A DNA stretch of 22,984 nucleotides from a virus, in IMG/VR virus record IMGVR_UViG_3300020057_000158, positions 1-22,984 of that record; one strand, given 5' to 3'. The notes beneath the pieces were generated by a model that worked only from the letters and a program-made list of their open reading frames with translations, did not search any database and had not been told where the DNA came from. Positions 291-21,108 of this stretch are shown one piece after another. Positions within the stretch are counted from its first letter, which is position 1. Each line of letters starts with the position of its first letter. Both the position numbers and the translations under genes were made by a program.

Positions 291-320
291 AGTTTATAAA
301 AATGGTCTCAGGGTTTGCAA
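291..320 (-). promoter_or_regulatory. Promoter P1 of the TTGCAAACCC family
   Basis: Minus-strand TTGCAAACCCT (320-310) is followed at the standard 18-nt spacing from TTGCAA by TAAACT (296-291), fitting the TAnnnT -10 seen at all eight copies. The predicted start is near 284. Unlike six of the others, no ATG follows at 25-26 nt; hairpins and a terminator do. Like P7, it has T rather than C as the eleventh base. Confidence 0.7.
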
Positions 321-345
321 CCATCAAATATAGCTAGGCAGGTGC

Positions 346-993
346 CTAAATGAAGCATGAGTAGGAGAGGTCGCCGCCTGTTGCATCAGGTGCAGGGGAA
401 AAAGAAGCTGCAATTACATTGATAGAGTCTGCAGCTCCCCTTGTAAAACTTATCGTGTTCGAGCCTGCTGATAGAGCCGTATTACTATCGCCAATCCTAC
501 AATTTATTCCTTCTGTTCCCCTTGAGGTAAGTCCTGTTCCTGCAACTGGAATAGCATTTATGGCCTGTCCGAAAGCAACTATCCAAGAGCCTGCTGCTAC
601 CACTGTTACTGCTACCGATTGTTCTGTTGTGCTCGCAGTAGTACCCTTATTTGAAGCATCTGGTTGTCCTGTTTGTTTCGCTCCCGTGTAAGATGCCGCA
701 TCGGTTCTAATGTTATGACTTGCGTTTGCACTGACAACTATATTGTTTGCACCTGAGGCGGGATTTACTAACATAAACAAGTATGCAAACCGTGTTGCGG
801 CACTTGCCATCTGTTGCTTATCAACCTGCGTCATTGATACCCCATTATATGTAGCTCCCGTTATAACATCTCCTGAAGCATCAGTACCTACTCCAACATA
901 CAAAATACGATCAGAACCCGTACAAGTATGCGCCCATGTTGAAGATGTTGCATTTGTGTTTGCGACTGATACTGCGTCAAAAGCTATTGGCAT
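346..993 (-). CDS. Probable tail fibre / appendage protein (215 aa)
   Basis: A Ser/Thr/Ala/Gly-rich, all-beta-looking protein starting MPIAFDAVSVANTNATSSTW, with no signal peptide. Its pattern (GSDRILYVGVGT near residue 26, ATYNGVSMT near 47, ending in a short tail SYSCFI) resembles small immunoglobulin- or lectin-like appendage proteins common in environmental phages; that is an impression, not a database match. It is the last gene of the P2 unit: its ATG follows the stop of the upstream fibre gene by only 3 nt and has no clear Shine-Dalgarno sequence, so translation is probably coupled. Its stop is 25 nt before P1. Likely virion surface or receptor-binding role. Confidence 0.8.
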   Translation of the reverse strand: MPIAFDAVSVANTNATSSTWAHTCTGSDRILYVGVGTDASGDVITGATYNGVSMTQVDKQQMASAATRFAYLFMLVNPASGANNIVVSANASHNIRTDAASYTGAKQTGQPDASNKGTTASTTEQSVAVTVVAAGSWIVAFGQAINAIPVAGTGLTSRGTEGINCRIGDSNTALSAGSNTISFTRGAADSINVIAASFSPAPDATGGDLSYSCFI

Positions 994-996
994 AAG

Positions 997-1854
997 TTAA
1001 ATCGAGCGAAATTGTACAGTTGCGTCTATCTTGTTACCCAATTGATCCACATCTACTGAAAAGACATCGCCCGCAATGAAGGTTCGAGTGTTTAATGAAG
1101 CCGTTGAGGCATAGGTGCCACCACCTAGAATTGATAGGCGTGTACCTGCTACGAATATAGAGGAAGCGTTCCTATTAATATCTATTAATACTGAAGCTCC
1201 TGAGACTGGTCCTGACAATACAACTGAAGCCCACTGTATAAAACCTGCATTGGGCATAGATAAGGGCTTACCGACCCCTACAGTGGCCAAGGACTGTACT
1301 CCAGCGATCTGCCAGGCGGGGTTAAGAGTGTTGATAATTACTGAGGCGCCTGAAGCAAATAATCCGGTGGTTATTCCCACTGTCTGAAGTGAAGCCACCG
1401 AGGCTACAACCAGACCCTTTGTGTTGGTAAGCTGAAGTGAGGCCAGTGACCATCCCACTATGTCTAATGATCTCATTAAACCTAGGGAGGGTAGTGAAGC
1501 GTGCTGTCCTAAATCTGAGTGCTCCGTAGTAAATACACCATACTTATCATTCTCATCCCCTACGTTTGGAGTGAATTCTACTATCGCTCCAACTGCATGA
1601 ATCTGGTCTGTTCCATCAGAACTACTTAAGCCAGTTATATTAGCTCCATTAACGTTTGTAAAGTATTTATATTCCCTCTTAGTAGCTGTAACACCCCCAG
1701 AGGTATCAATCCTGTCAATCACAAGATAGCCAGGCGCTCTAACTACGCCAGCAACTGTTTGATTAACCGTAAGAGATGAAGCACCAGCGCTGATTTGTGC
1801 ATCGAGCGTGTATTGACGGTTGTTTTGTGTTGGAACGCGTGGATATGTAGGCAT
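997..1854 (-). CDS. Tail fibre / receptor-binding-type protein (285 aa)
   Basis: The N-terminal ~100 residues (starting MPTYPRVPTQNNRQYTLDAQ) resemble a compact virion-anchoring beta domain. Residues ~125-200 contain loose Ser-Leu-Ala-Ser repeats, and the C-terminal ~85 residues (GFIQWASVVLSGPVSGASVLIDINRN..., ending DVFSVDVDQLGNKIDATVQF) look like a beta-sandwich found at the tips of many phage fibres. It is the first gene downstream of P2. Its ATG is 26 nt past the TTGCAAACCCC element with no Shine-Dalgarno sequence, so a leaderless mRNA is predicted. It was probably the direct neighbour of the nozzle gene before the HNH gene arrived. The function is inferred from composition and position. 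Confidence 0.85.
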   Translation of the reverse strand: MPTYPRVPTQNNRQYTLDAQISAGASSLTVNQTVAGVVRAPGYLVIDRIDTSGGVTATKREYKYFTNVNGANITGLSSSDGTDQIHAVGAIVEFTPNVGDENDKYGVFTTEHSDLGQHASLPSLGLMRSLDIVGWSLASLQLTNTKGLVVASVASLQTVGITTGLFASGASVIINTLNPAWQIAGVQSLATVGVGKPLSMPNAGFIQWASVVLSGPVSGASVLIDINRNASSIFVAGTRLSILGGGTYASTASLNTRTFIAGDVFSVDVDQLGNKIDATVQFRSI

Positions 1855-1866
1855 TTGTGGTATAAT
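1855..1866 (+). promoter_or_regulatory. Possible extended -10 for the HNH gene
   Basis: On the plus strand TTGTGGTATAAT carries a perfect TATAAT (1861-1866) preceded by TG at the extended -10 position. I see no good -35 at normal spacing. It lies ~36 nt before the HNH start, so it could drive that gene, but the same bases are the -10 region of P2 on the other strand. Confidence 0.35.
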
Positions 1867-1891
1867 ATATAGAGTTAAGGGGGGTTTGCAA
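1862..1891 (-). promoter_or_regulatory. Promoter P2, drives the two fibre genes
   Basis: Minus-strand TTGCAAACCCC (1891-1881, in a run of six C) is followed 18 nt after TTGCAA by TATTAT (1867-1862). The ATG of the fibre gene at 1854 lies 26 nt past the element, with no Shine-Dalgarno sequence between. The plus-strand HNH gene begins 10 nt beyond the -35-like end. Confidence 0.85.
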
Positions 1892-1901
1892 TCAAATAGG
1901 A

Positions 1902-4303: not shown

Positions 4304-4954
4304 TTATTCTCCTATTCTCCAGCCATTTCTCGAATATACGTCTGGTGTGCGATTATTCTGTGCGCCAGTAAATACTGACTCGTCTTCAATCATGTTTGAA
4401 AGTAGATCATCTGACTCACCCTTAACTATTGGGAACCTGCCATCTGATCGGGATTGCAGAATATATGCGATAGTGCGCTTAGCTAGGAACTCACCGCTCG
4501 GGCATACTGATATGTCTTGAAGAGTAGCTAATGAACTAGGGGTAGACTGGTATTGATATACTAAGCTCATCCCAGAGGCCATACCTGGATTAAAGTCTAT
4601 AAATAGACCTGACGAGTTGTTGCCACCTACGGTCACATACTTATCCGATGACACTCTTTTATATTGATCATCAGGATCTATCTCCATATATTCCGTGTTG
4701 GGACTTACTGATTTATCATATACAGGGCTCATAAGTCTCTTAAAATTAGCAGGTAGAGCTGTGGAAGTACCAGAAAGTGTGAATGTTAGTGCAGACTGAC
4801 TCCTTAACTGTTTCCACTCATATGCCTCAGCCCACTCAACTAGAGCCTGATTGATTAGATTGACACGCACTGTTAGTTCTGTGTCCGTAGCTAGGGCAGT
4901 GTCTTGGTCGATAAATGCAGCTACATCATTTAATACGGAATTTAGTGTTGCCAT
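4304..4954 (-). CDS. Head-to-tail adaptor (216 aa)
   Basis: A mostly helical N-terminus (MATLNSVLNDVAAFIDQDTA ... INQALVEWAEAYEWKQLRS, residues 1-52), a beta insertion (~55-140) and a helical C-terminus. This matches the general shape of podovirus adaptors that sit between portal and nozzle. It is first in the P3 unit, with the nozzle gene 1 nt downstream. ATG 4954 lies exactly 25 nt past TTGCAAACCCC and has no Shine-Dalgarno sequence, so a leaderless start is predicted. A different connector family is possible, but the pairing with a nozzle-type protein makes the adaptor role likely. Confidence 0.8.
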   Translation of the reverse strand: MATLNSVLNDVAAFIDQDTALATDTELTVRVNLINQALVEWAEAYEWKQLRSQSALTFTLSGTSTALPANFKRLMSPVYDKSVSPNTEYMEIDPDDQYKRVSSDKYVTVGGNNSSGLFIDFNPGMASGMSLVYQYQSTPSSLATLQDISVCPSGEFLAKRTIAYILQSRSDGRFPIVKGESDDLLSNMIEDESVFTGAQNNRTPDVYSRNGWRIGE

Positions 4955-4960
4955 AATATA

Positions 4961-4990
4961 AGACTATTCGTTCGAAAGTGGGGTTTGCAA
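4961..4990 (-). promoter_or_regulatory. Promoter P3, drives adaptor and nozzle
   Basis: Minus-strand TTGCAAACCCC (4990-4980) starts 2 nt after the stop of the upstream gene. TAGTCT (4966-4961) follows TTGCAA at 18 nt. The stretch ATAGTCTTA around the -10 is shared with P4. The adaptor ATG is 25 nt past the element. Confidence 0.85.
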
Positions 4991-5226: not shown

Positions 5227-7806
5227 TTAAGCCTGCGTGACTGTTATATCGTCTACAAATATATTACCAGCAGTACCATCACAATCAAGATAATATTCCA
5301 CTACTCCCAGCTCGTTTGGCGTTCCAGTTACTGTCAACTCTTCCCATGTAGAAGCTCCAACTGTTAGAGAAGCAGTAACATCAGAGGCTATTCCACCGAT
5401 CATTCCTCCAACTAAAACAAGTCTAGGTGCATTACCGTTATATGAGCCATCTTTTTGCACCCAAGCTTTTATGGTAACAAGAGTAGAAGCATTTACGGCA
5501 GCTTTAAACGTATCCAGGGTTGTTGGTCCAGGCAAAAGTAGCTTTGCATCTACTCTATTTGGAGCTAATTGCCAAGAATAACCCGATGCTGTGTATCTAG
5601 TTGTTTGATTACTAGAGATTATTCCGTATTTATACCAGTTTCTGAATGTAGTAGCGGAAGCATCATGCTTATGTGATCTTATAAATACACCAAGTGCTCC
5701 TAAAGTTGTAGAGGCAACTTCAGTTCCACTGGCTAGTGTAGTATTTATTAAGATAACCTCATATCCCAATCCTGACATTTGTATATCTGCTGTAGTATGA
5801 GTAGTGGTCGTACCAAAATTACAATTAATAAAGACTATCCTGCCAACAGCTGTGTTATTGCCGCGATTATTACTTAGTCCCTGTGTTGTTGAGAATGCTG
5901 AGTCTCCCTGAATACTACAGTTTAAAAAAATTATATTATACTGCAGAAGAATTGCTTGAGTAAACACATCCCCAATATTAGAAGTTTGGTTTCCGAATAA
6001 AGTCCAGCTATCTAATATATAATTAAAAATATTAGTCCCCGCTGTAAAACCAGCTAGATTAAGTCCTGCCGATCCAGCAGGAGCTGTTCTGTATATTGTC
6101 ATAGATCCTATTGTCTGCATAGACAAAGCATTCGAATGAATACCTACCCCAGCATTAGCGCAGGAGTGAACAACATTTCCAGAGATCGTCCCCGTACTTA
6201 CTACATCAGATTCTCGAAAAAAAATGGCATGACTTGATGTTCCTGAACCACTGACCATAGTGTTATTTGTAAAAGTTGATCCAAGATCCAGAATACTTAT
6301 ATTATTACTACCGCTTGGACTAGCAATAGTAATGAAAACATTGTCGCTAATCGTATGCGCACCTGTCGTGGCGGAGATAAGAACCCCCTCCGAAAGAGAT
6401 ATAGCAGTATTCAAATTATAGAAGCAATTATTACTAATAACTATACTTCCAGAGCTAGTAACAAAATAAAGACCTCCGTCCTCAGTATCACGAATTGAAC
6501 AATATTGCATATTAAAACTGCCTGCTGTTGTTGTAGCTATTTCTATACCTCTTTTATTTGTTGCATTATCTCCTATATATCTAAAATCAGCCCAATCAAT
6601 GTCTACGGTTGAGGTTGAAGCACAAAAAACATAAGTCATTATAGTAGAAGTGGCTGATCTAACGCGTACATTTCTAGTAAGTAAAATTACTTCTGCTTGC
6701 GTTGGAGAGGTGCCAGAATGAGCGTTAAGAAGTCCACCCCCAGCTCCTGCAAACCCATCTACTGTTAATTGAGTTGCACTCACGGTAATATTGATCGCTC
6801 CCAGTTCTGATTGAGCTGGAGTTCTAGTGGTTGAAGCAACAGCAATTTGATCATTATCAAGCCATCCCGTATCAGTATTTACATCCAGTAATGTACTATT
6901 AGCAGCCTCATCAACATTTAATTTACAACTAACTACATTTTTCCCTGAAGTTCTTGATAAGCCTTGAATAATACAAGTTCCAAGATTTCGTACTAAAAGC
7001 CCATAATCTCCATCAGCAGCAGGATCAAACTCAAGAACTGCTGAACCGTCTCTTGGAATTGGCGTTGCGACTGTACCGATATTTAGTGTCCCGCCAGAAT
7101 AAACAATAACCGAATTAGATACTTTATAATAATAATTCGTGGCTGATGCAGAACCATAAGTAACAGTTCCCTTACTGCAAATTGCTAAACCTGGAGTGAG
7201 AAGTGAATTAGCAGCAGTCGGAGCAGCCCCAAAGTCTGTCGTGGCAGTGTTATCTAAAGTTACAGTGAAAGAGTTAGAAGTTCCTGCTCCTGTGTATTCG
7301 CCAGCTACAATCAAATCGTCTGTTACTGCTGGAGCTGCTGTAGTGGTAGTTATCAAAGCTCTTGAAATGTTATCAGCAGTTGCATCTCTAAATAGAGAAA
7401 CCATTGAAGCAGAGGAAGTAAGTGCCTCTACATTATAAGCAGTGGCAGCCACAAGGGTAACAGTTGCAGCCAATTTGAAGAATACCCAAGCTCCATTAGC
7501 ATCGGCAGTTGCTGCTACTGGCAAGTCAGCAGTGTTGATAGTAACCAAAGTTCCAGCAACTTCCACTGCCGCCTGAACTAAGCGGACACTCATGGTCCCT
7601 GTAGTTCCTGTTCTCACAGAAAGTTTTACGCCAATATGAGAAATGGTAATAGCTCCAGGTGTGAAAGCAGATGAACGAGTCCCTGAACCAGCAGTAGTTA
7701 AAATTTCACTGCCTGTTTCAGCACCTAAATAAGAAGTTGCATTAACAGTCCCCCACGTTCCTGCTGCAGTAAAATTTCCTGTTGCGATTGATGCTAAAAG
7801 TGCCAT
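5227..7806 (-). CDS. Beta-helix tail spike / appendage protein (859 aa)
   Basis: The N-terminal ~170 residues look like a beta-sandwich (MALLASIATGNFTAAGTWGT...). Residues ~400-660 carry successive short beta strands with Asn-rich turns (ISNNCFYNLNTAISL, ISDNVFITI, FTNNTMVSGSG, ISGNVVHSC), the pattern of a right-handed parallel beta-helix. The last ~115 residues (PNRVDAKLLLPGPTTLDTF ... AGNIFVDDITVTQA) look like a carbohydrate-binding jelly roll. Such architecture is common in phage spikes that bind or cleave surface polysaccharide. I can assign no catalytic residues. The gene overlaps the previous stop (TAATG), with AAGG 9 nt upstream. The long glycan-oriented spike fits the sugar-modifying block upstream, but any link is speculative. 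Confidence 0.85.
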   Translation of the reverse strand: MALLASIATGNFTAAGTWGTVNATSYLGAETGSEILTTAGSGTRSSAFTPGAITISHIGVKLSVRTGTTGTMSVRLVQAAVEVAGTLVTINTADLPVAATADANGAWVFFKLAATVTLVAATAYNVEALTSSASMVSLFRDATADNISRALITTTTAAPAVTDDLIVAGEYTGAGTSNSFTVTLDNTATTDFGAAPTAANSLLTPGLAICSKGTVTYGSASATNYYYKVSNSVIVYSGGTLNIGTVATPIPRDGSAVLEFDPAADGDYGLLVRNLGTCIIQGLSRTSGKNVVSCKLNVDEAANSTLLDVNTDTGWLDNDQIAVASTTRTPAQSELGAINITVSATQLTVDGFAGAGGGLLNAHSGTSPTQAEVILLTRNVRVRSATSTIMTYVFCASTSTVDIDWADFRYIGDNATNKRGIEIATTTAGSFNMQYCSIRDTEDGGLYFVTSSGSIVISNNCFYNLNTAISLSEGVLISATTGAHTISDNVFITIASPSGSNNISILDLGSTFTNNTMVSGSGTSSHAIFFRESDVVSTGTISGNVVHSCANAGVGIHSNALSMQTIGSMTIYRTAPAGSAGLNLAGFTAGTNIFNYILDSWTLFGNQTSNIGDVFTQAILLQYNIIFLNCSIQGDSAFSTTQGLSNNRGNNTAVGRIVFINCNFGTTTTHTTADIQMSGLGYEVILINTTLASGTEVASTTLGALGVFIRSHKHDASATTFRNWYKYGIISSNQTTRYTASGYSWQLAPNRVDAKLLLPGPTTLDTFKAAVNASTLVTIKAWVQKDGSYNGNAPRLVLVGGMIGGIASDVTASLTVGASTWEELTVTGTPNELGVVEYYLDCDGTAGNIFVDDITVTQA

Positions 7807-9172
7807 TATTCAAACCTTACATTTGCTAAAACTGAGAGCGTTGCAGTAGCACCGAGATTGAGCACAAATCCTGTATTGACAGCCTTAGCTCTAAGCCCAG
7901 AATCTCCATTATTCATTACGAATCCCCCAAGGGTTGCAAGAGCGATTGGGGGGAACATTTGTTCCGCACCAGATAGTATGCTTACTATTTGATTACCCTG
8001 TGAGCTGATAAGTAGGTCTTTCAATACCCATCTCTGAGCTGCGGGAGCTACAAAGAGTGTTGCATTTCCACTAGCAGAATAAGTTGTTGCAAAGGAGGTG
8101 TAAGACGAGATAGGTACTGGGGTTACAGTTGCACCTGACTGAATATTAACATTGCCCTGTACTGAGACTAATCCTATGAAGTTGACTCCTGTATTTAATG
8201 ATACAAAAGTTCCACTTGCCAATGAAACTAAACCAAAACTGACAGGCTGAGTAGCGGGGAAATTTGAAACCGTGACGCTTCCTATCTGATTAGGTCCAGG
8301 GAAGAGGGTTGTCATACCAGCTGTAGTATTAATGTTGCCAAAGATTGAAACTGATCCTATATGATTAGCGCTTGGGTTGAGCCCTACTAGCGTGCCTGAT
8401 GCTAATGATACAAGTTGGTTAAATGAGACAGGCTGTGTTGCTTGAAAGAAAGTACCCGTTACGGCCTGTGATCCCGGGAAATTAGATACCGTAACTGAAC
8501 CTATTTGACTAGGCCCAGGGAACAAAGTAGTCATACCTATAGACAGACTATTAGCCATAGTAACAGTGGCTAGACCTATAAAATTTGTACCTGTAGGTAG
8601 CGGTGGAAGGGTCAGGACGTCAACATCTCCTATATTATTAACGCCAGCAGTGATACCCACCGAACCATCAATTGTTAATGATCCTCCATTATCTGTTACA
8701 GGATAAGTTGCAGGGAAGTTGTTGATCGTAGCCGTAGATCTTATCTCAGTTCCACTCGCTAAAGATACTAATCCAAAGCTTACAGGCTGTGTTGCTTGCC
8801 AAAATGTACCATCAACTGTAAGAGAGCCACCATTGTCTCCCACCTGCACAAGGGTTCCACTTGCTAGAGATACAAGCTGATTAAAAGAGACTGCCTGAGT
8901 TGCTGGGAAATTAAGGATTGTAGCAAGGGATCTTACCTCGGTTCCAGAGGCTAGGGAGATATTACCAGAGATATTTACACTTCCCTGTATTGAAGCTAAT
9001 CCAATAAAGTTAGCGCCAGCAGGAAGTGGATACAGCGAGACGGGAGAAATGATCTGTAGGTGTTCTCCTCCTAAAATGTTCGTTGCAAGAGTAGCACCTG
9101 ATCCTGTGGAAATTCTTAGAGCTATGGTTGAGCCCTCCCCAGATTATGACTAGTAAATTTTTTCTGTGTCAT
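7806..9172 (-). CDS. Repetitive beta-solenoid appendage protein, start separated by a -1 frameshift (455 aa if fused)
   Basis: The frame ending at 7806 stays open up to a TAA at 9146-9144 but has no ATG, GTG or TTG until GTG 8849, in mid-repeat. The upstream part clearly belongs: it carries the same units (NFIGLASIQGSVNISGNISLASGT, LNFPATQAVSFNQLVSLASGT). ATG 9172, 26 nt past P4, opens a 16-codon frame (MTQKKFTSHNLGRAQP) that joins it by a -1 slip on the GGGG run at 9140-9137, giving MTQKKFTSHNLG-EGSTIALRIS. Repeats are VSLASGT (five copies), NFPATQPVSF-like and xxIGxVxV units, with a ~100-residue non-repeated C-terminal domain. It is probably a fibre shaft or baseplate-like appendage. A missing G in the assembly would explain the break equally well. 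Confidence 0.8.
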
Positions 9173-9179: not shown

Positions 9180-9209
9180 AGACTATCTATCAAATAGTGG
9201 GGTTTGCAA
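9180..9209 (-). promoter_or_regulatory. Promoter P4, drives the beta-solenoid and beta-helix genes
   Basis: Minus-strand TTGCAAACCCC (9209-9199) starts 2 nt after the TAA of the upstream gene. TAGTCT (9185-9180) follows TTGCAA at 18 nt. ATG 9172 lies 26 nt past the element, with no Shine-Dalgarno sequence. Confidence 0.85.
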
Positions 9210-9467: not shown

Positions 9468-9797
9468 TTAAGAGTATAACGCGCTCCCGCGATTATCCCA
9501 TGAGTCAGTTGCAACCTGAACTAATGTAACTCTATTTGAAACATCATAAGTGACTTTCTGGATTACCCAGTTAGTATCGCTCGCAATCTTACCTGACACA
9601 TTAAATCCCACATAGACTGGATTATCATCTGATCTGCCATCGTAATCAATTCTTTTCTGTGAAGAAAAAGCTGGGGGGATAGGCTGTACTACATTTTTAG
9701 CAGCAAAAGTACCAACCCCATAAGGGTGTACGTGCTCTTCAAGGTCTGTAGGGCTTACTCCCTCTAAATCTATTACTTCAGTTATTGTATTAGCCAT
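9468..9797 (-). CDS. Small phage structural protein (109 aa)
   Basis: The N-terminal ~50 residues include an acidic stretch and EEHVHPYG. The C-terminal ~60 residues (RIDYDGRSDDNPVYVGFNVSG ... VIQKVTYDVSNRVTLVQVATDSWDNR) form a beta-rich segment of a kind I recognise from tail-fibre-region proteins, where it often occurs next to an MPKFNPFTG protein. GGAG lies ~11 nt before ATG 9797, inside the 3' end of the preceding gene, which it overlaps by 8 nt. No enzyme motif is visible. Confidence 0.8.
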   Translation of the reverse strand: MANTITEVIDLEGVSPTDLEEHVHPYGVGTFAAKNVVQPIPPAFSSQKRIDYDGRSDDNPVYVGFNVSGKIASDTNWVIQKVTYDVSNRVTLVQVATDSWDNRGSALYS

Positions 9798-10155
9798 TGA
9801 CTGTCATCTCCTTCATCTGCTTATCTATTTTTAATCTCTCCATCTCTAAATAAGCATACTGACTCAAGTGTTGTACGTTGTTGTTGCCTATTGACGGTCC
9901 ACCTACTCTGTTAGCCAGTTGACGCACTTCCCAGATAACATCCTCCCTAGACTTGGCTCCCTTTAACTTTGCCCATTCAACCAATCTTTCCAACTGATCT
10001 GAGTACTTACTTAATTCTTTTAAGTTATCCATACCAAGTGATCTTGCAAGCGATAACTTTTCAAGCTCCCCATCAGCTGGTACATCTAAATTATTGGGCT
10101 CAGGTGGTTTAGCCTCAACTTTTGGCTCAGCCTTAACATCATAGGGGTTGTTCAT
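9790..10155 (-). CDS. Hypothetical helical protein (121 aa)
   Basis: Not recognised. The N-terminal ~30 residues are Pro/Lys/Glu-rich and probably disordered (KAEPKVEAKPPEPNN). The rest is helical and charged (LEKLSLARSLGMDNLKELSKYSDQLERLVEWAKLKG; YLEMERLKIDKQMKEM), likely a coiled coil. It opens the P5 unit: ATG 10155 is exactly 25 nt past TTGCAAACCCC and lacks a Shine-Dalgarno sequence, so a leaderless start is predicted. Position after the sugar block and before the tail genes suggests a virion assembly or chaperone-like part, but nothing in the sequence proves it. Confidence 0.8.
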   Translation of the reverse strand: MNNPYDVKAEPKVEAKPPEPNNLDVPADGELEKLSLARSLGMDNLKELSKYSDQLERLVEWAKLKGAKSREDVIWEVRQLANRVGGPSIGNNNVQHLSQYAYLEMERLKIDKQMKEMTVNG

Positions 10156-10159: not shown

Positions 10160-10822
10160 TTACTTTAAATAGGAAAGCTTGGGGTTTGCAACGTAAGTCT
10201 GTCTTCTTTTATCATACGCACCATTAAAAGGTGTAAACTCATCCCACCCGGGGAGTCTGCCATGCTCAAGTGAGTAGCTCTTATTAGTCTGATCAAGCTT
10301 GAAGTCCCACCCGCCTATCATATTAAGCCTATCTAAGACATCTAGGCCACATAAGGAGCTATATTTATCTAGGTATTCATCAAACCCTCCTACAGCATAA
10401 AAGGCCTCCTTAGGCCATGCTGAATAGTTTAGCTCTATGTCATTGTAGAAGCATTGATAGAACGTCCCCTGGTCATCTCTCTCTCTTGGATCTTGCCAGG
10501 TCTTAACAGTCCAGGTGTCATCGCTGTACTTATTCCCTACTCCACTAACAATAGTCTTTGGCTCTTGCTGGAAGTGGAACCAGAACTTTTCTAAGCCTTC
10601 AGGATTAAAGAATGTATAGTCCTGCACGGTTACCAAAAGCTCCCCCTTACACTTCTTCAAAAGCCTATTGTAGGCCTTGTATATACCCCAATAGTCTCCT
10701 TCATTCTTTTCAGAGGAAGTATCAACTATCCACTCAAAATCTTTGAATGTCTGTCTTTTGAGAGCCTTCTCAACCAGAGCTAGTCCTTCTGGTCTAATTG
10801 AGGGTGTGATGACCGAAATCAT
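10160..10822 (-). CDS. Glycosyltransferase family 2-like (220 aa)
   Basis: The N-terminus MISVITPSIRPEGLALVEKALKRQTFKDFEWIVDTSS is the typical GT-A nucleotide-sugar-binding opening, followed by LLVTVQDYTFF (residues ~62-72), where QD replaces the usual DxD. A later GGFDEYLDKYSSLCGLDVLDRL segment matches the acceptor-side acidic region of family 2 enzymes. It would transfer a sugar from a nucleotide donor; donor and acceptor are unknown. ATG 10822 overlaps the previous gene's stop (ATGA), so translation is coupled. It is the last gene of the sugar block, and promoter P5 lies in its 3' end. Confidence 0.85.
   Translation of the reverse strand: MISVITPSIRPEGLALVEKALKRQTFKDFEWIVDTSSEKNEGDYWGIYKAYNRLLKKCKGELLVTVQDYTFFNPEGLEKFWFHFQQEPKTIVSGVGNKYSDDTWTVKTWQDPRERDDQGTFYQCFYNDIELNYSAWPKEAFYAVGGFDEYLDKYSSLCGLDVLDRLNMIGGWDFKLDQTNKSYSLEHGRLPGWDEFTPFNGAYDKRRQTYVANPKLSYLK
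10162..10191 (-). promoter_or_regulatory. Promoter P5, embedded in the end of a glycosyltransferase gene
   Basis: Minus-strand TTGCAAACCCC (10191-10181) encodes part of V-A-N-P near the C-terminus of the upstream gene, and TAAAGT (10167-10162) at 18 nt covers its last codons and runs into its stop. The next gene's ATG at 10155 lies 25 nt past the element. Coding and promoter constraint overlap here. Confidence 0.8.
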
Positions 10823-11298: not shown

Positions 11299-12178
11299 TA
11301 TACTCCCCCCATCTCTTGCGCCTTTCATGGTACCTGTCTAAGCCCTCACCCTTTAAAAAGCCAATGGTTTCCAATAGCTGTCTAACTCTCACATCATATG
11401 TGTGATTCTTTGTATAATTTTCCCTTGCTCGACTCAACATTCTGAGCCTCAATTCATCATCAGAACTAACTCTCTTAACCTTCTCCAACAACTCCTCCTT
11501 TGAATTGTATGCAATGTAGTGGTAGTCTGCTACAGCTGCCCAGTCCATATCATCTTTATTATATTCATGTTTATCAGCAGCCATAACATTTATCGGTCCA
11601 ACCTCAAAAAATCTTGTCTCCATCACGCCCTTATGAGCATCACCAGAGACTTGAAGTATGATCTTGGCAGCAGATAACATTCTTGAGACTGCAGCACCAC
11701 GGGCAACACCATTACTCCTAAACATGTTAATATCTTGCTTCTGTAGCCAATCTAAATACTCGACCCTCTTTAACCTATCCAGATCTTCTCTGCCTACAAA
11801 TCCTAAATCATATTCTATCCTTGTATCCTCATGGTATTTAAAATTTACAGGATCGTTTGCAAAAGGGAAGAAGTATGTTCTATCCTCAGGGTATGGATTA
11901 GGGCTAAGTGTGTATGGTGCCAGGACTATGTCAGAGGTAAACTCTTCAGCTACTTGATAATAACAGGCCTCAATATCCCACCAAGCCGTTATTTTCCCCC
12001 TGGGTCTCTCTGCTTTCGCCTCCGTATTAAAGACTAAGTCAGCTTCACCGGGTTGCAATTCACCGAGCCTGTAAACCTCTACATCATCCCTCCTCCTAAA
12101 GGCATCCTCGATCATGTTGCCACAAGAGATAGGAGTATCGTTGTAGTTATAACAAATTAGTAGCTTTAACTTTTTCAT
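11291..12178 (-). CDS. CgeB-like GT-B glycosyltransferase (295 aa)
   Basis: The N-terminal half is a Rossmann-like domain (KLKLLICYNYNDTPISCGNM ... ITAWWDIEACYY). The C-terminal half carries the signature of the CgeB/Glyco_trans_1_2 group: YDLGFVGRED, SAAKIILQVSGDAHKGVMETRFFEVG, then HYIAYNSKEELLEKVK and RMLSRARENYTKNHTYDVRVRQLL. Such enzymes transfer sugars in spore, capsule or flagellar glycan pathways. It overlaps the upstream epimerase by 32 nt and the downstream methyltransferase by 8 nt. The nucleotide-sugar donor is unknown. Confidence 0.85.
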   Translation of the reverse strand: MKKLKLLICYNYNDTPISCGNMIEDAFRRRDDVEVYRLGELQPGEADLVFNTEAKAERPRGKITAWWDIEACYYQVAEEFTSDIVLAPYTLSPNPYPEDRTYFFPFANDPVNFKYHEDTRIEYDLGFVGREDLDRLKRVEYLDWLQKQDINMFRSNGVARGAAVSRMLSAAKIILQVSGDAHKGVMETRFFEVGPINVMAADKHEYNKDDMDWAAVADYHYIAYNSKEELLEKVKRVSSDDELRLRMLSRARENYTKNHTYDVRVRQLLETIGFLKGEGLDRYHERRKRWGEYNA

Positions 12179-13022
12179 AATATACCACAGTCTTTTCTAG
12201 CCCATCTTCAAATGAAGTGTAATTAAAATCATAGGGTGTCCTAGCTATAACCTGTGAATGAGCACTTTCCCCTGGTCTCATTGGTAGGCTTTCGATATTA
12301 TCCTCTGGCTTATGACATGCTCTCAGTACGGACTTAGCAATGTCAGAAACCGTATACCCCTTACCTGTTCCTGCCTCAAAAGTATTTCCATAGGTAGTCT
12401 CATTTTCTAGCACGTTTAAAAGTATATTTGCAACATCTTTCACGTAAACCATATCCATTTCCTGTTGCCCATCTCCATATATCTGTATCTTTTCATCATT
12501 AAGTGCTCTTGTAATAAATGAAGGTATTATTTTCCTAACAGGATACGCCTTTTGTCTCTCACCATACGCGTTAAGTGCTCTCACTACATTTATCTTTACT
12601 CCATGTTCTTTTGCATACATAACAGCAAATCTCTCTGCTGTAGTTTTAGTTATAGAGTAGCTGTTATTTTCCCACCAGTTGCCAACAGCTATCTGCACAG
12701 CGGGTACTTTCCAAATCCTACATGCTTCAAATACATTTAGAGCTCCTATTATATTTACTTCTACTGAAGGATAGGGATTATTAACTGTCTCCTGTGTTCC
12801 CAGGATGCCCGCTATATTGATTACAGCATCAGCAGAACTTACTGCCTTCTCAACTAGCTCTTTATCTTTTAAATCTCCCAGATAAATCTTATCTGGCTGT
12901 AGAGCTTCAGGACTTATATGCCTAGCCAGGCCATGCGTGATATAGCCTCGTTTTTTAGTCTCCTGGAGTAAGTGCCCTGCTAAGAACCCATAACAACCTG
13001 TAATTAATATTTTTCTTTTCAT
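12147..13022 (-). CDS. NAD-dependent sugar epimerase/dehydratase, extended SDR (291 aa)
   Basis: TGCYGFLAGH (residues 8-17) is the NAD(P)-binding glycine motif of extended short-chain dehydrogenases. Tyr122 and Lys126 in YSITK form the catalytic YxxxK, followed by RALNAYGERQ and the substrate-side KIQIYGDGQQEMDMVYVKDVA motif, typical of UDP- or dTDP-sugar epimerases and dehydratases. It would make or interconvert an activated sugar for the neighbouring transferases. Its ATG overlaps the stop of the upstream gene (ATGA). The exact reaction, for example C4 epimerisation or C4 reduction, cannot be settled by eye. Confidence 0.9.
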   Translation of the reverse strand: MKRKILITGCYGFLAGHLLQETKKRGYITHGLARHISPEALQPDKIYLGDLKDKELVEKAVSSADAVINIAGILGTQETVNNPYPSVEVNIIGALNVFEACRIWKVPAVQIAVGNWWENNSYSITKTTAERFAVMYAKEHGVKINVVRALNAYGERQKAYPVRKIIPSFITRALNDEKIQIYGDGQQEMDMVYVKDVANILLNVLENETTYGNTFEAGTGKGYTVSDIAKSVLRACHKPEDNIESLPMRPGESAHSQVIARTPYDFNYTSFEDGLEKTVVYYEKVKATNLL

Positions 13023-13825
13023 AGTACAGACATGATTCCCTTCTTAAGTTGCTTAGCATAGTAATAGTGATCCCAGATCTCGCACTCTAATAATTCTTGC
13101 AACTTTGGGTTATCCTCTTCAATTTCTACATTTAATCCACAGGCTCTTGCTTCTAAGACAAACCTCTCGCCACCACCGATTAAATCAGCAGGAACATAGG
13201 CCGTGCGTGACCAGTGCATATAATTAACTAGATCAAGAGGGTGTATTTGATCTGATACCATTACATTTCCCTTGACTAATTCCTTGACAATTCCCATTGA
13301 CTCAGCCTCGTTATCAACCTGATAGTCTCCAACCACGAGCTTGTTACCCGTCTTGTCAATCATTCTTTCCCACCTCTTCCAGATCGCAAGCGAGCCCGCC
13401 CCTATATAATCCCATACAATCGGATTAGGAATAGGTGAGGGAGAGAAAATGTCTGTATTTACACCAAAGGCATGAACTATATTCTTATGGAAGGCTATCT
13501 GTGGTCTATACCATTTTGTCTCATAAAACAGCACATCATAGCTATTTGCACCAGCTGGAGGGAAGCCATTGCTACCTATACAGAGACCCTTCTTGTTATT
13601 TGTAGGCCATGACTGGATAATGCTATCAACTCGACTATTGAACCCACCCCAGCCTAGGATAAAGTAATCCTGTAGTCCTTCTGAAGTAATTGCCTCGGTT
13701 GCTATATTACACTTAAGTATCTCAAAGTCCTCTTCTAGTAGATTGAGCGCAGCCCACAGGCCATCCATCCAGTACTCAGGCTTTTTATGTTCGTAAACAA
13801 ATAATAATTTAGGCTTATGGCTCAT
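13019..13825 (-). CDS. GT4-like glycosyltransferase (268 aa)
   Basis: A GT-B-like protein: N-terminal KPKLLFVYEHKKPEYWMDGL, a central segment where a new Rossmann domain begins (PIVWDYIGAGSLAIWKRWERMID, KLVVGDYQ), and C-terminal ADLIGGGERFVLEARACGLNV, resembling the E-x7-E donor-sugar motif of family 4. I place the start at ATG 13825; an in-frame GTG at 13831 is a close alternative. It overlaps the preceding small gene by 11 nt and joins the epimerase gene by an ATGA overlap. It is rather short for the family but appears complete. Confidence 0.8.
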   Translation of the reverse strand: MSHKPKLLFVYEHKKPEYWMDGLWAALNLLEEDFEILKCNIATEAITSEGLQDYFILGWGGFNSRVDSIIQSWPTNNKKGLCIGSNGFPPAGANSYDVLFYETKWYRPQIAFHKNIVHAFGVNTDIFSPSPIPNPIVWDYIGAGSLAIWKRWERMIDKTGNKLVVGDYQVDNEAESMGIVKELVKGNVMVSDQIHPLDLVNYMHWSRTAYVPADLIGGGERFVLEARACGLNVEIEEDNPKLQELLECEIWDHYYYAKQLKKGIMSVL

Positions 13826-13997
13826 ATTCACACGACAGGCAAAATCTATATCTCGATTCTTCCATCTTCTCCTTCGATGAATGTGCTAAGTAGGCATACC
13901 AGGTATGCTTACCAAACGGACAATGAGTAAACTTCCTAATCCTTCTTATCCATAGCCTGATATGCCAATAATAAATTTGACTATGTTTAAAACTCAT
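13815..13997 (-). CDS. Small basic zinc-binding-type protein (60 aa)
   Basis: The pattern HCPFGKHTW at residues ~24-32 and RFCLSCEYEP at the C-terminus gives Cys-x4-His and Cys-x2-Cys, a likely single zinc site, like small phage zinc-ribbon proteins. The N-terminus is basic and aromatic (YYWHIRLWIRRIRK). It is wedged between two glycosyltransferase genes and overlaps both (11 nt each). Function unknown; it may be an accessory to the transferases or simply carried along. Confidence 0.65.
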   Translation of the reverse strand: MSFKHSQIYYWHIRLWIRRIRKFTHCPFGKHTWYAYLAHSSKEKMEESRYRFCLSCEYEP

Positions 13998-14553
13998 TAG
14001 TCCACTCCTTACTTATCAAATCCCACTCGTACCCCTTAGCGAATTCCCTAGCTTTTACCGATTCAGCCTCCCATGCCTTCTCATCCCCCATGTAATTAAA
14101 AAGTTCGCTTAACCAAGCTTCCTGCACCTCATCATCATAGATATCGCCATCAACCTTGCTACCTGCACCCACTGTCTCCTTAAGGGCAAAGCTATTCATT
14201 GTGACTGGTACGAGGCCGTCTGATTGAGAGTCAAGAGCTGTAATACAATTTATTTCTGCAAAATATGTAGGGAACACCCATATTCCACAAGCCTGTCTTA
14301 TTTCCCTTAGTTTGTCCTTGCTTACTCGACCATGATGGGTAATACCTTTCTGCTCCATGAGCTTGTTGAGCTTGTCTTTCCAGGCCATACGCTCAGGATT
14401 GTTAGCATAGCCCTTATCGAATAGATCCCACCCATAGCAAACCTCTAGCGTTGCGTCCGGGAACTTCTCCAAGACCTTAGGCCAGAGCTTGAGAAGGATA
14501 TCCAGATAGCGATCATAAGAAGAACCTCCGAATAGTTTATGATTAAATGCCAT
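13987..14553 (-). CDS. C-terminal half of a GT4 glycosyltransferase (188 aa)
   Basis: It begins in mid-fold: NHKLFGGSSYDRYLDILLKLWPKVLEKFPDATLEVCYGWDLFD is the start of the second Rossmann domain of family 4 enzymes, and GIWVFPTYFAEINCITALDSQSDGLVPVTMNSFALKETV is the donor-sugar-binding region. The first Rossmann domain is the end of the previous gene, which stops (NGI-TAA) just where this one starts in the +1 frame, with an 11-nt overlap. A GAGGG lies 9 nt before the ATG, so it can be translated separately. The two halves may assemble, be joined by +1 slippage, or reflect a sequence error. Confidence 0.8.
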   Translation of the reverse strand: MAFNHKLFGGSSYDRYLDILLKLWPKVLEKFPDATLEVCYGWDLFDKGYANNPERMAWKDKLNKLMEQKGITHHGRVSKDKLREIRQACGIWVFPTYFAEINCITALDSQSDGLVPVTMNSFALKETVGAGSKVDGDIYDDEVQEAWLSELFNYMGDEKAWEAESVKAREFAKGYEWDLISKEWTNEF

Positions 14554-16375
14554 TACTTATAACCCTCACTTTCTCTTCTGGTAGTTTTGGAACCATTGCC
14601 CTATGAAACTTGCTCTTGAAAAAGACCTTGTCTACCTTTTCCATTCTCTTATCTGACCAATCAAGCTGGCTAGCTATATCATGTAAGTCCATAAATAACT
14701 TCTTAGCTTTAATATCTCTATCTAGTAAGTGAGGACTTCTCCAAAGGATTAAAACATTGAAAGTGTCATTCCAGTTAATCTCATAATAAGGTCTGTAGGT
14801 AACCCCATCCATTTCCCCGGCATCCTCCCGTGGGTCGCCAAATACAGTGACTTTATAGCCCGCCTTAGCCCATCTCTTAGCCAACTCTATTACTGCTGTC
14901 TCAGAGCCTCCTATGCCCTTAGAAAGGCTATTGCCTGACCACTGCTCGAAATGCTCAGACCCCCATGAGGCATAGTAAGCTATCTCCTTATCTCCCCAAG
15001 TGCGTGGCTCCTTAATATCATTAGCTATGAAGTGTGCAAATTGTTCCCGCCCCAACTCTAGAGGCAGACTCTCGAGTAAGGCAGGAACCAACTTAGTGTT
15101 TTTGGTGTCTTTCAACCACTTAGCATAATTAAATACGTTCTTGGCGGCCTCATTTAACTCCCTTGCGCTTTTAAGCCCCACAAGTGCGTCATCTTCGGGC
15201 TGATTAACTATTTTTAAGCGAATACCATACCAATAAATAGCGTCATCGAGCTTTCCCTGTCTAATGGCCTGGTTATATTTAAGGCTTGCAGCTAAAAACT
15301 TAATATCAACTGGATTACCTATCGTGGTTCTTGTCTTAGGTTGCTCCATTTTCAATGCAACATCTAGCCAGAAGTCTGACTCCTCCATTAAATTTAGTTC
15401 GGAATATTCTCTAGCAATATATAAGTAGTTCATGTGCTTATTACCAAACTCCTTTGCTGCTTCAAAATAACAGTTACGCGCCTCTTTATGTCTACCGAAG
15501 ATACAATGTATATTACCTAGATACTCCCAGGCATATGATCTCTCTTCAGCCCAACCAGATAATCCGAGGTACTCACCTATTAGCTTTTCAGATATTGCAT
15601 AGTCTTGAGGTGTACGCATGTCATAGTGAGTCTTAGCTAGATAAAATATAGTTCTAGGATCATTCTGCTCCCTTGCTTGCTCCTCAGCTCTTTGGATTTC
15701 AAGTAACTTAATATTTCTCCTCATAGCAGACTCAACTCTGGTGTTATCTGTTAAGTGGGCCCATACCATTTTTCTATCTTCCCCTACGTTCAAATCCCAT
15801 GAGCTATATTTAGGCTCGTACTTATCATCTTTCGAGACTGCTACTTCATGTAATCTTGAGACCCACTTAAACATTCCAGGCTTAAGTAATCGCTCTCTTA
15901 AGTGCTCAATAGCAACGTCAATTATCTGTCCTTTTTCATCTTGCATGACAGAGTACCAGTAAGTCATAAAGACGCTGTCTAGGCCCCTCTCAAAGGCTTG
16001 TAGGGCACACTTAGCGAGCTCTTCTCCATGAATAAGTACATCGTCAACATCAGCCCAAGAATAGTAGTCAAATCCAAGCATTGTATCTGCTAGCTTAAAT
16101 GCTTCATTACGTGCTTCAGCAAATGAGGCAAAGATCCATGTACCGTCTTCTTCTTTATGATAGATCTGAGGATGAGTCTGGGGGGTAGTTCGTACCCATT
16201 TGCCATTATACTTCTCAACCAGAGCTTTGAGCTGTTGAGTCTTGCCACTTGTACCATTAATAACAACTGCCAGTCCTTGGAAATAAGGCATGAATGACTC
16301 AAGCATGCGGGTAGCCATCTTGATTTCTGTATCATCCTTAAAAATAGCTGTAAGTAATAGTTTTGGTTGTTTCAT
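14543..16375 (-). CDS. Multidomain glycosyltransferase: GT2, TPR-like region, GT4 N-terminal domain (610 aa)
   Basis: Residues 1-190 are a GT-A/family 2 domain with SWADVDD (107-112) supplying the DxD metal and sugar-nucleotide site. Residues ~235-430 are helical pairs resembling tetratricopeptide repeats (NDPRTIFYLAKTHYD, YLGNIHCIFGRHKEARNCYFEAAKEF, YLYIAREYSELNLMEESDFWLDVAL). Residues ~460-610 are the first Rossmann domain of a family 4 transferase with GIGGSETAVIELAKRWAKAGYKVTVFG (487-513), ending at ISNGI. The donor-binding half is in the next frame. It would add two sugars through two sites. It overlaps the gene before it (ATGA) and has no good ribosome site of its own. Confidence 0.88.
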   Translation of the reverse strand: MKQPKLLLTAIFKDDTEIKMATRMLESFMPYFQGLAVVINGTSGKTQQLKALVEKYNGKWVRTTPQTHPQIYHKEEDGTWIFASFAEARNEAFKLADTMLGFDYYSWADVDDVLIHGEELAKCALQAFERGLDSVFMTYWYSVMQDEKGQIIDVAIEHLRERLLKPGMFKWVSRLHEVAVSKDDKYEPKYSSWDLNVGEDRKMVWAHLTDNTRVESAMRRNIKLLEIQRAEEQAREQNDPRTIFYLAKTHYDMRTPQDYAISEKLIGEYLGLSGWAEERSYAWEYLGNIHCIFGRHKEARNCYFEAAKEFGNKHMNYLYIAREYSELNLMEESDFWLDVALKMEQPKTRTTIGNPVDIKFLAASLKYNQAIRQGKLDDAIYWYGIRLKIVNQPEDDALVGLKSARELNEAAKNVFNYAKWLKDTKNTKLVPALLESLPLELGREQFAHFIANDIKEPRTWGDKEIAYYASWGSEHFEQWSGNSLSKGIGGSETAVIELAKRWAKAGYKVTVFGDPREDAGEMDGVTYRPYYEINWNDTFNVLILWRSPHLLDRDIKAKKLFMDLHDIASQLDWSDKRMEKVDKVFFKSKFHRAMVPKLPEEKVRVISNGI

Positions 16376-18686: not shown

Positions 18687-18690
18687 AAGA

Positions 18691-18738
18691 TTAATTAATG
18701 CACCGTTGTTTAGAGTGGTGGAGCATAGCCACTGACAT
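18691..18738 (-). CDS. Possible leaderless 15-codon leader peptide ahead of scaffold
   Basis: ATG 18738 lies exactly 25 nt past the P6 TTGCAAACCCC, the same distance as the start codons of the portal, adaptor and 10155 genes. It opens the frame MSVAMLHHSKQRCIN-stop, with TAA at 18693-18691, 4 nt before the scaffold ATG. The position, rather than the peptide sequence, is the evidence. It may exist to load ribosomes on a leaderless mRNA and pass them to the scaffold gene. No family is recognisable at this length. Confidence 0.5.
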   Translation of the reverse strand: MSVAMLHHSKQRCIN

Positions 18739-18741: not shown

Positions 18742-18757
18742 TTATGCTAGTGCATAA
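18742..18757. promoter_or_regulatory. Inverted repeat over the P6 -10 region, candidate operator
   Basis: TTATGC-TAGT-GCATAA is a perfect 6-bp inverted repeat with a 4-nt centre. It covers the TAGCAT -10 box of P6 (18744-18749). I did not see a similar repeat at the other promoters. A dimeric repressor or activator site is possible; so is chance. Confidence 0.35.
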
Positions 18758-18774
18758 GCAGGGGGGGTTTGCAA
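18744..18774 (-). promoter_or_regulatory. Promoter P6, drives scaffold and capsid
   Basis: Minus-strand TTGCAAACCCC (18774-18764, inside a run of seven C) is followed by TAGCAT (18749-18744) at 19 nt from TTGCAA, one more than at the other seven copies. It lies between the stop of a small gene and the scaffold region and is the last such element before the capsid gene and the sugar block. Confidence 0.82.
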
Positions 18775-18988: not shown

Positions 18989-19295
18989 ATGCTTCCTTAT
19001 CTTCGTACTTCTTTAAGACAGATTCACTAACTGTTCTTTGGGACTCCATAAACTCCAAGAACTTCTTAATTGCGTTAGTGCCACCCAATGCTTCACAGTA
19101 AGGGAGCAGGAGCTCCTCCTTGGTCTTGAAATCCTTGGGCTGGGGGTATCCCTCCTGCGCCAGGTTGAGGAGGTAAGGCTTGACCAGCTCCGCCCATGCC
19201 TGGTGCCCCTGTAGGTCCACCAAGAGCTTGGCCTGTCGGATCAACTCCAAGTCCTGGTTGTTGTAGCTGTTGAGTTTGGAAGAGTCCTTCTGCAT
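18981..19295 (-). CDS. Small protein overprinted on the portal C-terminus (104 aa)
   Basis: ATG 19295 has a good GGAG 6 nt upstream, and its first ~67 codons overlap the portal gene in another frame (203 nt). The product (MQKDSSKLNSYNNQDLELIRQAKLLVDLQGHQAWAEL ... NAIKKFLEFMESQRTVSESVLKKYED) is charged and helical, more like a folded protein than the Pro/Gly/Gln-rich portal tail it overlaps. It continues 112 nt past the portal stop. Promoter P7 inside the portal gene lies 70 nt upstream. I do not recognise the family; a head-assembly or DNA-packaging accessory is plausible from position. Confidence 0.8.
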   Translation of the reverse strand: MQKDSSKLNSYNNQDLELIRQAKLLVDLQGHQAWAELVKPYLLNLAQEGYPQPKDFKTKEELLLPYCEALGGTNAIKKFLEFMESQRTVSESVLKKYEDKEAYE

Positions 19296-21072
19296 CTTTT
19301 TCTCCAGCGTCAGTCAATATGTTTATCAAAAGTTCTTTGATCTTTAACGTTTCGCCTTGTTGAGATAATAACCCAAGTACGTTAGGGTTTGCAATTATAA
19401 GTTCATAAGCTTTCTGTCTACCCTGTGTCGCTTGTATACCAGCGCCCACTGTCATTGACCTAATATCTGGTATGTAATCATAAACCCCTACCATATCATC
19501 CCTATCAACATACAAGTCTGCTTCTTCGCCCATATCTTTAACATCTAGCTTCGACTTCATTTGATCAGGATCATTACCAGGGAATACAGGATTAGTAGGG
19601 ACTGCCGTATCCCTCATGACCTCGCCTATCATATCTGGGCTTACAGATTCAGGACTTTCTGTAATTGCTGCCTCAATTTCCTGCATTGCTTCATCAGGCA
19701 CTTCCATACCATCTAACTGCATTTGCTGAAGAGCTTGAATATTTGATTTACCAATGATCTTAATAATATGAAATTCTTTCTCTGGATCATCAAATAGATA
19801 CTGCTTATTATTAGATAGCCACATCATCATCACATCTTTTAGGTACTCTCCTAAATACAGTTGATTAGCCTGATCTCTGTTATTCTGTTGACTGACTTGT
19901 TCTTTAACCTCAGTGGCTGTCTTTTGTGTGAAAGTACCCCCCACATTACTTACCCCAAGACTAGAGTCCCCCATAGCTGTATTAAAAGCAGCCTTAAGCG
20001 CTGGGTACATAGCATTGAAATTAGCTAGATTACCTTGTGAGAATTGCATCTCCTGTACGTTATTCAGATTATTCATAATCCACCTAGCACCTGGTCCATA
20101 TTCAATAGTCTCAATACGTGTTCCTGCTGGCACTACCTTCAAAGGTGGACGAATCCTAATGTTTGCCTCATCTATTGCACCTGCTAATAAGGAATTAATA
20201 CCCCTGGCAAGTGGGACAACAGACTCAACCTCACTCTCTCCATAAATATCATCGCCTAATGGATAATATCTAAGCTGTGCAAATGGAATTTTTCCATGCT
20301 CGTAGGGATTCTCACTATCCTTTAGGATAATTGCATATTTGGGACAAAAGACTACCATTCCATCCGGTGTCCATTCGGTTATTACATCGACAACTGGATT
20401 AGACAGGTCATCGCCCGTTCTATCCTCAAGTCCTCTGTTTGCTAATACCTGATCTACGTATTCATTACTCCTAAGCGCCTGCACGCCTTCCTTCATGTGT
20501 CTTTTTAACCTTGATACATCATATTTCTTTGTCTCAAGTTGCTTAATTGTTGAAAACTCCCTATATTGCACCCATTTAGCATTTCTAATATGGGTGGCTG
20601 CTGGATCAATAAAGACATCTCGTACATCGCATGGCTTGAGCTCATTGCAGTTCTTTGAATTATCCCAATAGACATATGCTAGCTTCATGCCAAACAACCT
20701 AGCATCCATGTCACTAAGCGCTGTCTTCTCGAGCATTGAGCCACCCTCATTAGCGTTATCCCACTGATAGTCAAGAATCGCATTGTTAATCTTAGCCTTA
20801 ATCATATCCCCACCCTCTCGTGGCTCTAGTCTCCCCTGGAGCTTTGCATTGATAAGACGGTTATTCTTCTCGAGGATTGCTGTTCTAATCATTGGGTCTG
20901 TAACAACTGACATATAAGGCCAGTTCTTTGGGAGCTTACCCATATAGGCATTAACAATATCATTCCAGCCATTCTTTCGAGTGCGTCTGGTATCCATGTC
21001 TTGCTTGCCCTTGGTGTAGTGGTCTAGGAGCTTATTAAGTTTATCAAGCTCCTGATCTGATTTCTTTGCCAT
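19093..21072 (-). CDS. Portal protein, P22-like (659 aa)
   Basis: The dodecameric channel at the capsid vertex through which terminase packs DNA. The N-terminus is helical (residues 1-60), followed by MSVVTDPMIRTAILEKNNRLINAKLQGR and a core with DVRDVFIDPAATHIRNAKWVQYREF (~153-177), VITEWTPDGMVVFCPK and PFAQLRYYPLGDDIYGESEVESVVPLARGINSLL (~275-308), the wing-to-stem pattern of P22-type portals. Length is close to P22's 725. The last ~60 residues are Gln/Gly/Pro-rich, probably disordered, and overlap another gene. ATG 21072 is 25 nt past P8 with no Shine-Dalgarno sequence, so it is predicted leaderless. Confidence 0.93.
   Translation of the reverse strand: MAKKSDQELDKLNKLLDHYTKGKQDMDTRRTRKNGWNDIVNAYMGKLPKNWPYMSVVTDPMIRTAILEKNNRLINAKLQGRLEPREGGDMIKAKINNAILDYQWDNANEGGSMLEKTALSDMDARLFGMKLAYVYWDNSKNCNELKPCDVRDVFIDPAATHIRNAKWVQYREFSTIKQLETKKYDVSRLKRHMKEGVQALRSNEYVDQVLANRGLEDRTGDDLSNPVVDVITEWTPDGMVVFCPKYAIILKDSENPYEHGKIPFAQLRYYPLGDDIYGESEVESVVPLARGINSLLAGAIDEANIRIRPPLKVVPAGTRIETIEYGPGARWIMNNLNNVQEMQFSQGNLANFNAMYPALKAAFNTAMGDSSLGVSNVGGTFTQKTATEVKEQVSQQNNRDQANQLYLGEYLKDVMMMWLSNNKQYLFDDPEKEFHIIKIIGKSNIQALQQMQLDGMEVPDEAMQEIEAAITESPESVSPDMIGEVMRDTAVPTNPVFPGNDPDQMKSKLDVKDMGEEADLYVDRDDMVGVYDYIPDIRSMTVGAGIQATQGRQKAYELIIANPNVLGLLSQQGETLKIKELLINILTDAGEKDAEGLFQTQQLQQPGLGVDPTGQALGGPTGAPGMGGAGQALPPQPGAGGIPPAQGFQDQGGAPAPLL
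19365..19394 (-). promoter_or_regulatory. Promoter P7, inside the portal gene
   Basis: Minus-strand TTGCAAACCCT (19394-19384), coding for part of I-A-N-P in the portal, is followed at 18 nt by TATTAT (19370-19365). The predicted start is near 19358, giving a ~60-nt leader before ATG 19295, which has its own Shine-Dalgarno sequence. With P1 it is one of two copies lacking an ATG at 25-26 nt. Confidence 0.6.
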
Positions 21073-21078
21073 ATAGAG

Positions 21079-21108
21079 AGGTTATTAGTCTTCGTTAGGG
21101 GTTTGCAA
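21079..21108 (-). promoter_or_regulatory. Promoter P8, drives the portal gene
   Basis: Minus-strand TTGCAAACCCC (21108-21098) begins directly after the TAA of the zinc-ribbon gene. TAACCT (21084-21079) follows TTGCAA at 18 nt. The portal ATG lies 25 nt past the element without a Shine-Dalgarno sequence. Confidence 0.85.

Follow-up and report, generated by a model that had tools for sequence, protein, structure and literature searches.

How a phage from an uncultivated lineage might direct transcription of its late genes is the question raised by the IMG/VR record IMGVR_UViG_3300020057_000158, a partial genome whose whole stretch of 22,984 bases was analysed and is referred to below as the window. 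The element TTGCAAACCC occurs in the window in eight exact copies, all on the minus strand and none on the plus strand; dinucleotide shuffling of the window gave an expectation of 0.02 copies, and no shuffle reached eight. Allowing one mismatch adds a single further copy, CTGCAAACCC, at 6747 on the plus strand. All eight copies are followed by a TAnnnT hexamer, which lies 18 nucleotides (nt) from TTGCAA in seven copies and 19 nt from it (as TAGCAT) in the copy at 18774. With A and T at about 0.29 each, we estimate the chance of TAnnnT at a fixed spacing in seven of eight copies at about 1e-10. These copies, their strand and both spacings had been described in an initial annotation of the window, and all are confirmed here. 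TAnnnT corresponds to a sigma-70-type -10 box, with the conserved A2 and T6. The upstream box is not the sigma-70 -35 sequence (TTGACA at 16-18 nt): TTG is retained, followed by nnAACC or variants of it. The reading of the elements as sigma-70-like promoters, also put forward in the initial annotation, is supported by their conservation at homologous genes in relatives, and from sequence the eight are almost certainly late promoters that form a conserved family.

The arrangement downstream of the elements is similarly regular (all features here are on the minus strand unless stated otherwise). Six of the eight are followed, 5-7 nt after TAnnnT, by an ATG that has no Shine-Dalgarno (SD) sequence before it. 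The portal promoter (21079..21108; TTGCAAACCC N14 TAACCT) is 6 nt from the ATG at 21072 of the portal gene (19093..21072), and the same element precedes portal in relatives. The promoters of a gene for 121 amino acids (aa) (10162..10191; gene 9790..10155, ATG at 10155) and of the tail adaptor gene (4961..4990; gene 4304..4954, ATG at 4954), the latter conserved at the adaptor gene in relatives, also lie 6 nt from their start codons. The distance is 7 nt for the promoter of a fibre-like gene of 285 aa (1862..1891; gene 997..1854, ATG at 1854) and for the late promoter at 9180..9209, which faces a frame beginning at 9172. The sixth ATG, at 18738, opens a short frame after the copy that precedes scaffold (18744..18774). 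Operon-internal genes of the window, for example those at 13997, 9797 and 4302, carry AGGAG-type SD sequences. The remaining two copies lie within the portal open reading frame (ORF) (19365..19394), where the next start is that of a GGAG-preceded 104-aa gene at 19295, and before a short RNA (291..320). The proposal that the elements divide the region into logical units, portal to terminal RNA, holds only roughly, as one copy is inside the portal gene and one stands before a short terminated RNA.

Leaderless genes of bacteria are known from published work to be marked by TANNNT some 10-12 nt ahead of the start codon (PMC3160421), and the same class of layout is found here, with the -10 box about 10-12 nt before the start codon and no SD. 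Since the -10 box ends about 6 nt before an ATG that has no SD, the mRNAs should be leaderless. Judged from this layout, the late transcripts are very probably leaderless, presumably starting at the ATG.

Relatives were found through the portal protein. A scan with the portal of the window gave two contigs, whose portals are 44-46% identical to it, and searching with all three portals aligned gave 51 loci. A scan with the capsid protein alone gave no relatives, and the capsid alignment was too divergent for searching. The exact motif of the window is present in viral contigs essentially as single-copy chance matches, and the motif is recognisable across phages only after its variable positions are freed. 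The element then has the form TTGnnAA(C/G)nn-N14-TAnnnT in about 45 contigs of related phages, where it lies on the late strand with a spacing of 18, or 19 in G014 and L282. It is carried by the same genes across relatives: portal, scaffold, adaptor and fibres. Before portal, most close relatives have TTGATAACC, TTGAAAACCC, TTGCAAACC, TTGTCAACCG and similar sequences, with unchanged spacing to TAnnnT and ATG.

The strand bias and geometry of the element are also seen in counts across relatives. In 24 relative contigs, TTGnnAACC occurs 85 times in sense and 24 times in antisense orientation; TAnnnT is in place in 30 of the 85 sense copies versus 1 of the 24 antisense copies, and the distance from the motif start to an ATG is exactly 36 nt in 25 sense versus 0 antisense copies, 37 nt in 11 versus 0, and 38 nt in 5 versus 1. 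When the full layout is scanned in 26 contigs, 82 sense and 4 antisense sites are found, and 44 of 59 sites have T as the sixth -10 base, a position that the search did not constrain. The conserved genes led by the promoter are mainly portal (15/20), adaptor (9/11) and the 285-aa family (4/6), and in the relatives compared TerL, capsid, nozzle and the gene for a small zinc protein considered below are never promoter-led. An SD is present in only 1 of 36 promoter-led genes versus 51 of 215 other genes (p 0.003). The published literature searched, which excluded most subscription journals, yielded no account of a motif or a group of phages of this kind.

The only relative recovered from a scan of genome contigs, G025 (JAHFMX010000008.1, locus L267), is a complete contig of 43,366 bp that carries a direct terminal repeat of 120 bp. 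Six TTGATAACAT-N14-TAnnnT sites occur in it, all in sense orientation within the late block and each before an ATG. The expectation that copies would sit at gene starts and not be scattered is borne out here: every one of the six marks the start of a late gene, and there is no copy at any other place or in antisense orientation. The early side of this genome has a perfect TTGACA-17-TATAAT at 31855. G025 was binned in a 1.2-Mb genome, and members of that genome's family have 0.5-1.0 Mb, with ribosomal protein L30 missing in 21/21 and L16 kept in 19/21. Such a family of small genomes without L30 fits Patescibacteria. The binning of G025 with a reduced genome of this type is a possible hint at the host, binning alone being weak evidence.

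The sequence of the -35 extension differs between phages, and within a phage it is largely fixed. The window has a single version (TTGCAAACCC, eight times), and the relatives G007 and G010 have TTGNNAAGT(T/C) at 6 and 7 sites, with the -10 box in place and none antisense. In the promoters of these two relatives CC is changed to GT, and their zinc proteins are divergent as well. Most G014 sites have one extra base in the spacer (15), and G001 has two promoter subclasses, TTGAAAACCC and TTGAAAAGGC, both leaderless in layout. Because many sites have changed in concert in each genome, the pattern is one that co-evolution with a trans-acting reader would produce, and since the version fixed in one genome differs from that in another, the extension should be read by a trans-acting factor that is specific to the phage. 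The suggestion in the initial annotation that the conserved ACC is an extra recognition surface fits this pattern, the ACC being either kept or altered in concert, genome by genome.

A candidate for such a factor is encoded just upstream of portal, in a gene that adjoins the portal promoter (21109..21408). Its product is a treble-clef-like zinc protein of 99 aa, proposed as a candidate late transcription factor on the basis of its conservation, distribution and predicted structure. Invariant W, CQxC and CxxC residues and a near-invariant W-S/T-K-Y/W-GG segment characterise the family, which is known to neither Pfam nor PHROGs; G007 and G010 have FTKYGRT or FTKWGRT in place of WSKYGGA. The protein is present in 21 of the 25 contigs first compared, and is missing from G005, G017 and G004/G023 (the same virus). 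It is the only conserved family that is in all promoter-bearing genomes tested and absent from the three genomes that encode sigma factors. A scan with the zinc protein alone gave 35 loci, 23 of them new, and the new loci hold the leaderless promoter layout at 21 sense and 0 antisense sites, mostly on the gene after the zinc gene. With strict matching, the promoter is found before portal in 30 of 44 zinc-bearing contigs versus 0 of 4 sigma-type contigs. The layout occurs in zinc-bearing contigs at 117 of 15,360 sense ATGs versus 15 of 8,425 antisense ATGs. A structural model of the protein (mean predicted local distance difference test score 79.5, with 40 homologues) has a beta-rich N-terminal part, a zinc finger and two helices, and its nearest solved folds are treble-clef fingers (ribosomal L24e, the GATA3 DNA-binding finger with Z 4.0, and FYVE). 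The predicted fold would allow nucleic-acid binding. Whether the zinc protein is the factor that reads the promoter is, from its sequence and distribution, about an even call.

Full sigma factors, three different ones, are encoded by G005 (L180), G017 (L193 contig) and G023 (L219 contig), G004 being a fragment without the sigma region. These relatives have no TTGnnAACC before portal. They have their own repeated leaderless promoters at the same late genes, namely TTTTTTAGTWRTTANTT-ATG in G017, TTTATTAGTTGTAACTT-ATG in G023 and CCAATTAAG near the ATG in G005. No Sigma70_r2 match was found in the large motif-bearing contigs G001, G002, G014 and G015. In the portal tree the sigma carriers are a single clade (91/95 support) beside the window and G003, which rules out three independent swaps of zinc protein for sigma factor. 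A distant relative, MW202497, has a gene annotated 'sigma factor cnrH', for which only a sub-threshold region-4 match was obtained; ordinary TTGACA/TATAAT-like sites and SDs accompany several genes of this relative.

An explanation for this locus must account for the conservation, geometry, strand bias and late-gene location of the promoter family, and for its correlation with one gene. We propose that host RNA polymerase would act with its primary sigma factor, as we infer, on TAnnnT, and that TTGnnAACC would serve in place of the usual -35. With the A of the ATG taken as +1, TTG would occupy -36 to -34 and AACC -31 to -28. Transcription would begin on or next to this A at most copies, giving leaderless mRNAs, and the remaining copies would feed the structured scaffold leader, a gene with an SD or the short RNA that ends in a terminator. 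The zinc protein may act on AACC as an activator or as a sigma appropriator in the manner of T4 MotA, with sigma region 4 possibly still touching TTG. The explanation as a whole, comprising late promoters, host polymerase and the zinc protein as candidate -35 reader, appears to us a reasonably probable one. Several points weigh against it. G001 (the L164 contig) has both TTGAAAACCC and TTGAAAAGGC but one zinc protein, and every concerted change of the motif is one event. As the sigma carriers are one clade, a single replacement is indicated, so that the anticorrelation counts once and not three times and is only moderate evidence. A strict pre-portal match is missing from 14 of the 44 zinc-bearing contigs, although many of these keep a TTGnnAACC-like box in place. 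The treble-clef match is weak, with Z at most 4.4, and the position of the zinc gene in the late region, beside terminase, is odd for a regulator of late genes.

It is conceivable, though we think it unlikely, that the host primary sigma acts alone and that TTGnnAACC reflects a host-specific -35 preference, with no phage factor required. TTG and TAnnnT do fit the sigma-70 type, and leaderless TANNNT genes are widespread among bacteria (PMC3160421). However, the element is limited to late genes in G025, whose early side has the perfect sigma-70 promoter given above, the sites of one phage genome differ together from those of another in their -35 extension, and the relatives without the element encode a sigma factor of their own. 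An alternative phage or host sigma, missed by Pfam models, might instead read both elements, the zinc protein then being structural or for packaging. The location of the zinc gene between terminase and portal would suit such a role, AACC resembles the AAC of the -35 elements of extracytoplasmic function (ECF) sigma factors, and three relatives in one portal clade do combine sigma factors with lineage-specific leaderless late promoters. The motif-bearing contigs listed above nevertheless lack a Sigma70_r2 match, no other family with the right distribution is conserved in all motif-bearing contigs tested, and the -10 box is TAnnnT and not of ECF type, so that we rate this reading, too, as improbable. 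That the repeats are a dispersed DNA or RNA signal of another kind, for packaging, replication or mRNA processing, would agree with the one copy inside the portal ORF. It seems highly improbable given that the spacing to TAnnnT and the distance to ATG are fixed, that only the late strand is used, and that other promoter-like elements replace the repeats at the same genes in the sigma-encoding relatives.

At scaffold, the promoter copy is followed in relatives by a leader RNA and not by a gene start, and the window copy (18744..18774, spacing 19) likewise precedes an RNA leader and not a leaderless gene. A mini-ORF after this copy was considered and dropped in favour of the leader seen in relatives. 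The leader consists of an outer stem, a hairpin with a GATGCTC loop and a downstream GAGCA that pairs with the loop, and in many members the 3' strand of the outer stem adjoins or overlaps the SD. With differing letters, 17 of 17 sequences accommodate both the hairpin and the loop pairing, a count that leans towards structure, as the sequences are a chosen set and their pairs were assigned by eye. Independently of that choice, outer stems have 5.7 pairs within sequences versus 4.4 across sequences, and none of 10,000 permutations was as high. A compensatory change is seen in G019, where TGCTGA/TCAGCA replaces TGCTC/GAGCA, and pseudoknot-like leaders are present in G002, G014, G016, G020, G025 and others. 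The leader of the window (18687..18738; hairpin AGTGG/CCACT, ATGCTC loop, GCAT downstream) is weak and folds poorly alone. Rfam has no family for the leader and gave only sub-threshold noise. The sigma-encoding relatives carry the leader too, which makes it independent of the promoter type.

The last promoter copy (291..320) precedes a predicted structured RNA of about 80 nt (205..284) with three hairpins and a minimum free energy of -29.7 kcal/mol (z -5.0). It ends in a strong terminator, a long GC-rich stem (207-244) followed by T8. Downstream of the copy at 9180..9209, the leaderless ATG reads 16 codons to a TAG (9122-9172), and the frame shifts before an ORF of 347 aa. The region of this long ORF (7806-8849) is open upstream in another frame and has no usual start. 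The mismatch could be accounted for by an insertion or deletion, by a frameshift near CTGGGGAGGG or by the use of an ATA start preceded by GGGGAGG. Between the capsid and tail genes (10160-16375) is a block of glycosyltransferase-like, epimerase and methyltransferase genes, two glycosyltransferase families of which are in all relatives tested. A lone plus-strand HNH endonuclease gene (1902-2324) stands back to back with the promoter at 1862..1891. After the capsid gene, just upstream of a start at 16752, a GGGGGCTCTAAATGGGCCCCC hairpin is likely to be a terminator or processing site.

Detailed knowledge of how late genes are controlled comes from no more than a few model phages. This uncultivated lineage shows a consistent late promoter of leaderless layout, a testable candidate regulator and a natural swap of regulator and sigma factor, and its genome-specific promoter variants with matching protein variants are a ready-made specificity experiment. 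We tentatively suggest, giving it slightly less than an even chance, that a new class of phage transcription factor is represented here: a treble-clef zinc protein of about 90 residues that replaces -35 function at the leaderless late promoters of an uncultivated lineage, and for which, within that lineage, dedicated sigma factors have been substituted along with a change of the promoter sequence at the late genes. The general kind of system, phage promoters with a replaced -35, is already known; that the factor is of a new kind is plausible.

Small zinc-binding late activators are known from phages in the Ogr/Delta proteins of P2, Ogr acting from about -55. The zinc protein resembles these in being small and zinc-binding, but the window protein and two homologues have no Ogr/Delta Pfam match at E values up to 5. 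Phages with a late sigma factor of their own are found among the relatives themselves (G005, G017 and G023), where the corresponding genes are led by different leaderless late promoters, whereas the lineage of the window has the zinc protein instead, no sigma factor being detected in the four motif-bearing contigs searched. In T4 middle promoters, which depend on sigma appropriation by AsiA and MotA, a MotA box centred near -30 replaces the -35 and is combined with a sigma-70-type -10 (PMC6755090). In the family described here the conserved AACC would fall at about -31 to -28, with the ATG taken as +1, and an activator may bind there. The T4 box, however, differs in sequence and serves middle genes, whereas the window promoters are late and leaderless in layout, and no MotA-like family matched the zinc protein, which is treble-clef-like. 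With the leaderless TANNNT genes of Actinobacteria, Deinococcus-Thermus and others (PMC3160421), the window promoters share a -10 box directly before the start codon and a short or missing 5' untranslated region. To this arrangement the window set adds a specific -35 extension that is limited to the late genes of one phage lineage and appears to need a phage factor.

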